Below, one piece after another: positions 30,893 through 34,171 of a stretch of DNA of 52,225 nt (its first letter is position 1; every line of letters begins with the position of its first letter). Below the pieces are notes generated by a model. That model saw nothing but the letters and a program-made list of their open reading frames with translations. It did no database searches and had not been told where the DNA came from. A program made the position numbers and the translations under genes. The stretch lies in contig NZ_CAKMAA020000033.1 in the NCBI RefSeq assembly GCF_924101635.2, positions 1 to 52,225 on the forward strand, written 5' to 3'. This DNA comes from Candidatus Nitrotoga sp. HW29 (GTDB lineage Bacteria > Pseudomonadota > Gammaproteobacteria > Burkholderiales > Gallionellaceae).

Positions 30893-31780
30893 CTAAAAAG
30901 ATAACCGCGTAATTTCTTTTGTACCCTCCTTGCCTTCAACTGTGTATGCAAATGTAGCGCTTGAATAGCTATGGAAGCTAAATGTTCCAGTCCCAACCGG
31001 CGTTACTACAAGCTGGCCAGGGTCGTATGTTACACCCAGGTAAGTACCTGTCGTCTTGTAAATTGGGCCCGTATAAACCGTAGAGCTTAGCCATTGTCCC
31101 GGCTGGAGCGTATACCACGTAGGCTGGCCCGCTTGATCATACACAAACCATACGGCAAATATTCGATCACTGGGGTGTTGCATGATACTGAAACCCATCC
31201 CGGATTCCTGCGGGTTCCACCAGTGATCCGTATAGTCAACGAAGGGAAACACTCCGGTTTTAGTAGCGTTATTATTGGTAACGGTAAATTGTGCCGAACC
31301 AATCTGAATTTCTTGGGGGGTGATACCCGTATTTGATATATTTTTGCGAAAAATATCGACACTGAACACCCCTGATGGAAATTGTCCCAATTTGATATCA
31401 ACATCTCTATATGAGGTAAGAGGCGGCACACCGAAATCTATACAGCTCTCTGGTGCTCTAATATCTACTCTAATAGCCGTGCCTATTTGTTGAACTTGAG
31501 TAACGACAACCTCCTGTCCACATGTATAGTAATCATGTATTCTGGTCACGACTGACTCAAGATTCATTGGATTGGCTGGATGTATTGTTACATTTTCTGC
31601 TTTAGCCGTTGTCAGCACTCCGAAAATCATTCCGATCAAGAGTGCTCTCTTAGCAAATGAGAAATTCCTTAACCGAAAATCGTCTATGACGTTTCCAATG
31701 TATACAAATAAACGTTTTGCATCCTTTTTTAAAAAACAAAATGCCGTATTCATAATTTTTTCATGTCTGATTTTCATCAT
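30893..31780 (-). CDS. Exported protein with Trp/Gly-rich C-terminal domain
   Basis: A protein of about 295 aa. AAAAGGGG lies 3-6 nt before an ATG-ATG pair (31780/31777), which I prefer to the TTG at 31801. A hydrophobic signal segment (about ALLIGMIFGVLTTAKA) is preceded by an unusually long, charged N-region of about 40 residues. The mature part has a beta-rich domain, then HWWNPQESGMGFSIMQH and a following AVWFVYD..GQPTWYTLQPG. This module recurs in secreted proteins of beta- and gammaproteobacteria, often with proteases. It lies 24 nt after the subtilase stop, same strand, so the two are probably one operon. The module's function is unknown. Confidence 0.7.
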   Translation of the reverse strand: MMKIRHEKIMNTAFCFLKKDAKRLFVYIGNVIDDFRLRNFSFAKRALLIGMIFGVLTTAKAENVTIHPANPMNLESVVTRIHDYYTCGQEVVVTQVQQIGTAIRVDIRAPESCIDFGVPPLTSYRDVDIKLGQFPSGVFSVDIFRKNISNTGITPQEIQIGSAQFTVTNNNATKTGVFPFVDYTDHWWNPQESGMGFSIMQHPSDRIFAVWFVYDQAGQPTWYTLQPGQWLSSTVYTGPIYKTTGTYLGVTYDPGQLVVTPVGTGTFSFHSYSSATFAYTVEGKEGTKEITRLSF

Positions 31781-31803: not shown

Positions 31804-33939
31804 TTAATATGTTGTTGGACGGCTGCCATTATTCAGGTAGACATAGCCCAGCGTCACCAAATTTTGGGTATATCCTTGGTTCGCCATGATAGTTTGTTGC
31901 TGTTGCGGGAACAGAGCGTAGTCGTCCCGGGTTGGGTTATATGCGCGCATCAACGGAGTTGCATTGGCAGGCTTACCCAAACTGGTCGGGTATATGTAAC
32001 CCTCAATACCATCAAGCTTGTAATAGGCCGACCCAATATAGCTTTGCGCCTCTGCCAAGCTCGCTGTATAAAAATGGCTTACGTGCTTAGGATTGGTTCC
32101 GCACACAGAAACACCAGGATCACCGCATTTCCAGCTTAACCTATACAGCGGTTTCAATTCTACGGTGGTGCTAAATGGATTGGCATGGGTCGTAAATACC
32201 CACACTTCCGCAAGCGGGCTGGTCCAGCTGACGAGCTGGGGGGCCGCAAATAGAGGATACTCTGCCACCGTTGTTCCATATGGAACGTACTGTGTTGCGG
32301 CCAGCGAAGAGGGTACCGGGGGCAACCAAGCAGTGAGGGCGGCACGCGCCATTTGCGGTACTACGGTATAGAAATGATCTGCCGCTACGCTACTGTAGTG
32401 ACTAAAGAGCGGCGTTAATCGGTTTGTCGTTGCCAGCACATTATTGACCGCCGTTGCCGCATTCGGCACGCCATAACCACGCATCATATTCGGGGAAGCG
32501 GCATTGTCGCCCGAGCTCAATAACGCACTGGTGATCTGGCTTGCACTTAACAGTGGATTTACGGTACGCAACAGCCCGACAATACCCGTGATATGGGGGG
32601 TCGCCATGGATGTTCCGGTGCATGTGCCATAATTTGGCCCTCTTGAATGTCCATTTGAAGCACTGGTTCCACAGCGAGCGACTGAACTCCAATTTTTCCC
32701 ATAATACATTGAGGATAGTACATCCCGGCCGGGAGTAAGGATACCGCGAGTTTCCATTCCTGGGCCGGTACTTGACCCTTGAAAACCTTCCTTTGGCACC
32801 TCTTCAGTCCAAAGATTTCCCCGTGTGCCAGAATTTGCCTGGATCGCACCAACAGCGATTGTGTAAGGGCTTACCGCTGGAAAATCGAGGGTTGTTCCAA
32901 GCCCGTATCCACTTCCACCCACGCGCTTATCACTGTTACCAGCGGCAGCAACAACGATTACCTCTCTGGTTGAAGCATGTTTAAGTGCAAGACAATAAGC
33001 ATGATTAACATTTAGAGCACAATTGAGGTCCCCACCCCCTAAGCTTAGATTGATCGCTTGAGCACCTGATTTAACAGCCCAATTAATAGCATTGGGGATA
33101 TCAATTGTGTCATCCAGACCAGCTCCAACCCGCCTTATGTTTGCCACCATCAGGGTGCAGTACCAGCAAACACCCGCTCCTCCTGTTGGTGACGGATTAG
33201 GATAACCTGAAGCCACACCAGATCGAGTTGTTGCAGCGGCTATAATCCCGGCGGTGTGTGTACCATGCCCGGCACCACCTCCGAAGAGTTCTGGGTGTTC
33301 ATCAACATCGGCACCTCCCGCCACATTGAACGTAAATTGTGAGCGCCATGATTGTGCCAAATCCTCATGTACTGGAATGCCCGGTACCCTACCGCTCTGA
33401 ATGCCGCTATCCAAATGGGCAATATAAGCCGTCCCACGGACAGTGTTCCAGGCAGCCTGTAGATTTAACGGATTGTTGATACCCCATTGGTAATTTGGTG
33501 CCGTTGTGGCTACTGGATACAGTGGATCGGAAGGGGCAACTGAAAATTCACTGAAAGTACTTTCTTGGACAAAAAGCACACCAAGGTCATTTTTCAAGAT
33601 TGCTTTAGCCGCCATGGTGCTAGCGGTATCTGGATATTCAAGAACGACGTAGCGATGGAGTAATTCTTCCGGGTCGTCATCTGGCAGGGTGGCGCGGTAG
33701 TCATCCGGCAAGCGGTGGGTGAGTAGTAAACTGACTCGTGACGGATGGGAAAATCGTCGGCTGTGGTCCGCTGAGGCAGATTGTGGATTTTTAAATTCCT
33801 GCTCCAGATCCTCAGCTTTAAGGGATAGGATATCGCCTTTGTTGTAATTCAACAAAACGGCAAGTTTGCGTACTTCAGGTGTAGTGGCTTCTTTGTCCGC
33901 TAGGGCGTTGTTACTGAAGAGCGTGAAGCCAGTAAGCAT
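31804..33939 (-). CDS. Secreted subtilisin-like protease (S8) with disrupted translation start
   Basis: A 711-aa subtilase. A propeptide-like region (about 15-140) is followed by the catalytic domain with Asp177 (HLDSG), His225 (GHGTHTAG), oxyanion Asn335 (AAGNS) and Ser444 (GTSMATPH). The C-terminal region (about 515-711) has repeats of the DUF5648 type (HFYT.......A), a likely surface-binding module. The frame begins MLTGFTLF..NNALA, only half a signal peptide. A strong GGAGGAG and ATG at 33986 open a 15-codon frame that ends in TAATG at this start. Removing one copy of the adjacent 8-bp tandem repeat fuses both into a complete signal peptide. The gene is therefore switched off, phase-variable, or translated by reinitiation. 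Confidence 0.85.
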   Translation of the reverse strand: MLTGFTLFSNNALADKEATTPEVRKLAVLLNYNKGDILSLKAEDLEQEFKNPQSASADHSRRFSHPSRVSLLLTHRLPDDYRATLPDDDPEELLHRYVVLEYPDTASTMAAKAILKNDLGVLFVQESTFSEFSVAPSDPLYPVATTAPNYQWGINNPLNLQAAWNTVRGTAYIAHLDSGIQSGRVPGIPVHEDLAQSWRSQFTFNVAGGADVDEHPELFGGGAGHGTHTAGIIAAATTRSGVASGYPNPSPTGGAGVCWYCTLMVANIRRVGAGLDDTIDIPNAINWAVKSGAQAINLSLGGGDLNCALNVNHAYCLALKHASTREVIVVAAAGNSDKRVGGSGYGLGTTLDFPAVSPYTIAVGAIQANSGTRGNLWTEEVPKEGFQGSSTGPGMETRGILTPGRDVLSSMYYGKNWSSVARCGTSASNGHSRGPNYGTCTGTSMATPHITGIVGLLRTVNPLLSASQITSALLSSGDNAASPNMMRGYGVPNAATAVNNVLATTNRLTPLFSHYSSVAADHFYTVVPQMARAALTAWLPPVPSSLAATQYVPYGTTVAEYPLFAAPQLVSWTSPLAEVWVFTTHANPFSTTVELKPLYRLSWKCGDPGVSVCGTNPKHVSHFYTASLAEAQSYIGSAYYKLDGIEGYIYPTSLGKPANATPLMRAYNPTRDDYALFPQQQQTIMANQGYTQNLVTLGYVYLNNGSRPTTY

Positions 33940-33986
33940 TAGTAAGACCGTAAGACCGTATTCCAGTGTGACCGTTGCGTGTTCAT
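33939..33986 (-). CDS. 15-codon leader frame created by the 8-bp duplication
   Basis: The ATG at 33986 lies 5 nt after GGAGGAG. The frame MNTQRSHWNTVLRSY ends at TAA, whose last A is the first base of the subtilase ATG. It is probably the original signal-peptide start now out of frame; it may act as a coupling leader. Confidence 0.5.
   Translation of the reverse strand: MNTQRSHWNTVLRSY
33944..33959. repeat. 8-bp tandem duplication in the subtilase signal-peptide codons
   Basis: Two adjacent copies of AAGACCGT (ACGGTCTT on the coding strand). One copy restores the reading frame between the strong start at 33986 and the subtilase body. Confidence 0.85.
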
Positions 33987-34093
33987 CGTGTCTCCTCCTG
34001 TCGGTTTAAAAGTTCGCCAGTGTGATGGCCGCACCACAAACTACGAACAGGCCCGACCATACGCCGGTTATGCGTATCAAGCAATAGAGTCGG

Positions 34094-34171
34094 TTAAGGC
34101 TACGCTGAATAATCACGCATATTCCGTAATTAGAATCTCAGAAATGCGGGGCTTATTCAGCGTAGCCTTAA
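34094..34171. mobile_element. MITE-like element with 15-bp terminal inverted repeats and TTAA ends
   Basis: A perfect 19-bp inverted repeat TTAAGGCTACGCTGAATAA (34094-34112) and its complement (34153-34171), separated by 40 nt with no coding capacity. The outer TTAA on each side could be a target-site duplication. The GGCT...TGAATAA end resembles termini of IS5-group elements. The right arm supplies the last four codons and the stop of the gene at 34157-34906. Confidence 0.6.

Follow-up and report, generated by a model that had tools for sequence, protein, structure and literature searches.

In the 52,225-nt stretch of DNA analysed here (referred to as the window), the gene for an exported subtilase begins out of frame, and on balance we think that export of this protease was stopped by a recent change that put its slippage-prone start out of frame, as one of several losses of the gene within the genus. 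A net gain of 8 nt between a leader ATG and a tandem repeat pair would cause the ribosome to stop after 15 codons, and the exported protease would then not be made, or would be made only in traces by reinitiation at an overlapping ATG. As 8-nt near-copies are abundant at the start, slippage or template switching is a plausible cause, and the protease would have been lost repeatedly in the genus with its partner gene kept. We favour this reading because of direct observations made besides the anatomy of the start: the gene is intact and in frame in a relative (G008), start lengths change by +8 and -8 nt, other copies of the gene carry lesions, and the partner frame is open in all seven complete copies. 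From these we infer the cause of the change, the loss of expression and its irreversibility. The first-pass annotation of this DNA had offered three readings, and its recent inactivation is the one best supported by the in-frame G008 and by the recurrent loss in relatives.

The subtilase frame lies on the minus strand (31804..33939), encodes 711 aa from an internal ATG and contains no internal stop. Its product belongs to Peptidase_S8 (PF00082, residues 172-490, 120.9 bits against a curated cut-off of 21.8), with a DUF5648 match at residues 616-694, and a phmmer search against solved structures returned subtilisins (best E 3e-13). HLDSG, GHGTHTAG and GTSMATPH are visible in the translation; D-S-G, H-G-T-H and G-T-S-M are what we take to be the Asp-His-Ser catalytic motifs of subtilases. 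The genome to which the window belongs (2.99 Mb, 96 contigs, the window being C33) has two more Peptidase_S8 genes, both as open frames, and a search for plasmid relatives gave no match. Nitrotoga is a genus of free-living nitrite oxidisers (PMC8415719); in the portion of that article available to us, the words 'protease' and 'peptidase' do not occur.

Upstream of the 711-aa frame, on the minus strand, a Shine-Dalgarno-like GGAGGAG (33992..33998) can be read directly. It precedes a leader frame of 15 codons, MNTQRSHWNTVLRSY (33939..33986; ATG at 33986-33984, TAA at 33941-33939), which is the start of a signal peptide placed out of frame. The leader TAA and the ATG of the 711-aa frame (33939-33937) share one base, the A at 33939, giving a UAAUG overlap. 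Within the leader lies the tandem pair ACGGTCTT ACGGTCTT (33944..33959, with copies at 33959-33952 and 33951-33944), and immediately before it the segment ACACTGGAAT (33960..33969), which occurs in the window only and stands opposite two bases of G008 in the MAFFT alignment, a net difference of +8 nt. The first-pass annotation had described the ribosome-binding motif, the ATG at 33986, the 15 codons, the TAATG and the two copies of ACGGTCTT correctly to the base, and its arithmetic holds as well: with 8 nt fewer the two frames become one, as the 50 nt of the window and the 42 nt of the in-frame G008 illustrate.

We searched for the gene in 19 genomes of Candidatus Nitrotoga, the genus of the window. 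It is present along its full length in three of them, namely the window's own genome, G007 (Candidatus Nitrotoga sp. SPKER, 95% identical and the sole match in the named genome collection) and G008, while four others of the 19 yielded remnants or weak subtilase matches. Outside these, the next best match among 149 genomes is 43% identical (G089). From the leader ATG to the first common downstream codon (CTT), the count is 50 nt for the window, 42 for G008 and 34 for G007; measured against G008, the window has gained 8 nt and G007 has lost 8 nt at the same place. Only G008 is in frame. Its GGAGGAG and ATG, located at the equivalent place, begin a full-length protein with an intact signal peptide, MNMQRSHGLTVLLILTGFTLFSNNALA; the ribosome-binding site of G007 at that place reads GGAGGCG. 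Relative to this intact copy the window carries a disrupting lesion (net +8 nt), as a pseudogene does. Fourteen other genes of the window were compared with the same relatives: 12 match the G007 stretch and 12 the G008 stretch, some partially, and no stop falls within the matched stretches.

The 8-bp duplication itself had been proposed by the first-pass annotation as the change that splits the frame, a proposal that we set aside, as the in-frame G008 also has both copies, and so does G007. With the ACGGTCTT pair identical across all three genomes, the simplest view is that it is not the lesion; to judge from the alignment, the duplication is most simply regarded as ancestral, and the change that broke the window's frame would lie just upstream of the pair. 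MAFFT places the 8-nt gap there, opposite 33967-33960, a placement that is uncertain beside a near-repeat. The annotation had conceded that its view would fail if all relatives carried two copies and lacked the longer frame: two copies are indeed found in both relatives, and the longer frame is absent from G007 but present in G008. As to the origin of the segment, TCACACTGG, which is part of ACACTGGAAT, recurs 54 nt upstream (repeat D2), and template switching from that upstream copy is possible. Duplication of a unit followed by divergence of the older one is possible too, and would need more changes. Programmed frameshifting is not supported, since the offsets of the window (50 nt) and of G007 (34 nt) need shifts in different directions; no slippery heptamer of the form X XXY YYZ was seen by eye in the start region.

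A reversible switch of protease export by gain and loss of an 8-nt unit, also put forward in the first-pass annotation, appears to us rather unlikely; under it, the window and G007 would be OFF and G008 ON. The start region does have the layout of a phase-variable locus, with tandem units of 8 nt, a length not divisible by 3, lying between start codon and coding frame. The period-8 match at the tandem pair, 11 bases over 19 nt, is the sole period-8 run of at least 11 in the 52-kb window, the mean in 30 first-order Markov simulations of the window being 0.0 for this period and 0.2 for all periods from 5 to 20. The ACGGTCTT repeat is therefore above chance locally, yet it is short and has two copies. 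Total length varies in exact 8-nt steps (34, 42 and 50 nt) among three species, each represented by one genome; G008 carries an additional near-unit, ACGGTCTC, and G007 resembles G008 with one unit removed. The perfect pair, on the other hand, is invariant in all three genomes having the gene, the alignment puts the window's additional 8 nt upstream of it, and ACTGGAAT agrees with ACGGTCTT at 4 of 8 positions when compared by eye, a poor match for a repeat unit. Only two perfect units exist, G007 has an additional stop, and the 16-nt pair, with up to one mismatch allowed, has no further occurrence in the 19 genomes of the genus.

The closest precedent for such a switch is autB of Neisseria meningitidis. 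According to the part of the source available to us (PMC5118866), its signal-sequence DNA contains AAGC repeats, 2 to 10 units among isolates; the gene is out of phase in most strains, in-phase strains express it, and some copies are further disrupted. The window resembles this system in having a short tandem repeat in signal-sequence DNA, an out-of-frame gene and further lesions in some copies. It differs in that two perfect units are present, that three species with one genome each are compared, and that the product is a subtilase and not an autotransporter. The reversible switch, if true, would mean that a nitrite-oxidising bacterium turns an exported enzyme on and off through repeat-based phase variation; a search of one open-licence library found no paper containing both 'phase variation' and 'nitrite-oxidizing'.

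The pattern of substitutions bears on both loss and switching. Between the window's own gene and that of G007, 94 synonymous and 43 non-synonymous changes were counted over 709 codons (dS 0.207, dN 0.027, ratio 0.13), which is not the relaxed selection of a pseudogene, although a very recent loss would look alike. With G008 as outgroup, the ratio of synonymous to non-synonymous codon changes is 32:8 on the own branch and 34:6 on that of G007, counts which omit gapped codons and codons differing in all three genomes and serve as supporting evidence only. Assuming a background ratio of 0.11, the probability of observing at most 8 non-synonymous changes on the own branch is 0.012 if 10% of that branch had been neutral and 0.064 if 5% had been. 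Taking into account the ratio of 0.13 and these probabilities, the loss must be recent, or else the gene is still used at times. Speaking against loss, a long-dead gene should decay, yet the 711-aa frame shows no second lesion and keeps its catalytic motifs. Both branches look constrained, and a coding frame under purifying selection despite being off fits a reversible switch too; so do length steps of exactly 8 nt, up in one species and down in another.

The outgroup itself is uneven. Counted per 100 alignment columns, G008 and the window are 88-98% identical from the leader to about 33500 and 71-88% identical from there on. G008 is strongly diverged in the later part of the subtilase (31804-33500) and in the partner gene, with flanks that are better conserved, a pattern that suggests allele replacement. 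Because G008 has the more divergent allele from about 33500 on, it is an imperfect outgroup.

We consider unlikely that the leader is translated in order to allow a restart at UAAUG, which would yield a low level of protease, perhaps without export. This third reading of the first-pass annotation draws on the UAAUG overlap, on the strong ribosome-binding site of the leader and on the fact that stop-start coupling is a known process. The window resembles termination-reinitiation systems in the overlap of leader and main frame. Such systems normally couple two real genes, whereas here the leader is the subtilase gene's own start, put out of place. Nor is the overlap conserved: in the alignment the internal ATG occurs in the window only, being ATC in G007 and ATA in G008, the leader ends elsewhere in G007, and G008 has no separate leader frame. 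Comparative support for a reinitiation leader is thus absent. The product of the internal ATG, MLTGFTLFSNNALA, is by its sequence a poor signal peptide, without positive charge ahead of the core, with most of the hydrophobic core missing, and with a best 7-residue Kyte-Doolittle mean of 1.63, where the signal peptide of G008 reaches 3.31. No SD-like motif was seen by eye close before 33939. In the part of a study of Haloferax volcanii available to us, loss of the SD motif never abolished stop-start coupling and reduced its efficiency by about 20 to 80% in six of seven gene pairs (PMC6728339).

The reading that we prefer, recent loss of protease export, is in keeping with the state of the other subtilase copies in the genus. 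In G007, the copy on contig C17 has, besides the shifted start, a TAA replacing Tyr413, upstream of the catalytic serine. In a paralogue on contig C24 of the same genome, a near-tandem insertion of 7 nt immediately following the catalytic serine motif splits the gene (L031, about 2885); this copy has a different signal peptide, in which no repeat was seen by eye. At a second locus, found on contig C56 of the window's own genome, at 1.53 Mb in G008 and on contig C6 in G001, about 40 C-terminal subtilase codons are left, with stops. Since the flanks are co-linear at the three places, three independent losses were rejected and the remnants were counted as what is most simply one ancestral event. 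Altogether, a complete partner gene stands at seven places, and at one of these (G008, 2.68 Mb) the subtilase is intact; the remaining six comprise the start-only break of the window, the two breaks of G007 C17, the split copy of G007 C24 and three remnants. The set resembles frameshift pseudogenes of secreted proteases in having a 5' indel, further lesions in a relative and a near-complete deletion at another locus, and is unlike them in that the rest of the window's frame is still open and constrained.

The partner gene lies directly downstream on the minus strand (30893..31780) and encodes 295 aa from its ATG, a putative exported protein with an N-terminus that by eye is signal-peptide-like. 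It has a variable middle and a conserved C-terminal part. No match was found in Pfam or NCBIfam, and a structure model with a mean pLDDT of 49.3 is too poor to use. We searched for the partner in 120 genomes of the family, including the 19 of the genus, and its frame is open in seven of seven complete genus copies, a count that leaves out a partial copy in G003 and matches to the C-terminal domain alone. Pairwise dN/dS ranges over 0.20-0.39 for the whole gene, 0.21-0.72 for the variable middle and 0.04-0.16 for the C-terminal part. Identity between the window's own genome and G007 is lowest in the partner middle, 63-70% between 31578 and 31382, compared with 87-100% in the subtilase. If the subtilase has simply been lost, the event is an ordinary frameshift, which an annotation of the 711-aa frame as an intact protease would hide; more telling is the repeated loss of the protease next to a partner that stays under constraint. 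The partner may have a role of its own, or it may protect against the protease. That it is a protease inhibitor or protective factor, kept wherever the protease is off or lost under a low-rate ON/OFF export switch working in 8-nt steps, seems to us quite improbable. In our judgement these comparisons give more weight to the segment adjoining the repeat than to the repeat itself, and favour recurrent loss, with the partner retained, over a switch.

Two further features of the partner concern its relatives elsewhere. When the copies on contig C56 of the own genome and on G007 C17 are compared, the variable middle (dS 0.12) is much closer than the C-terminal part (dS 0.42), a contrast that suggests recombination between loci. 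Several Nitrotoga genomes also have the C-terminal domain (30896-31264) within larger open frames, of which G006 C1:774495-779386 is one, and in some of these frames it is present as two tandem copies.

An error of sequencing or assembly in the window, which comes from a 96-contig draft (G007 being labelled a MAG), is highly improbable, as sequencing reads are much longer than the 16-nt repeat and a simple miscount of a unit or a homopolymer would not produce the window-specific segment.

Changes in repeat number may also act through transcription. In the part of the source available to us, pil1 of Streptococcus gallolyticus has GCAGA repeats, 22 in the strain described, and they act through a transcription terminator (PMC3894217). 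The likeness to the window would be a repeat number that sets how long a short leader frame in front of a gene is. Unlike pil1, the window has no terminator-like site between 33900 and 34300 and its leader RNA fold is ordinary (z 0.52), so that an attenuator of this type was rejected. A sigma-70-like site was not found between 33900 and 34300 either. Homology to G007 and G008 ends at 34096, some 110 nt upstream of the leader ATG, and because other sequence is present from there on, the promoter may also differ between the window and its relatives. The window has at this place a palindromic repeat element (34094..34171, likewise some 110 bp ahead of that ATG). Related copies occur in 6 of the 19 genus genomes, the window's own included, with up to nine matches in G015; the element looks like a small non-coding mobile repeat. 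G008 instead has about 800 nt there, including a 214-nt yaeQ-like fragment. This fragment (L056:9097-9310) is a duplicate of part of yaeQ, 95% identical to the yaeQ of the window.
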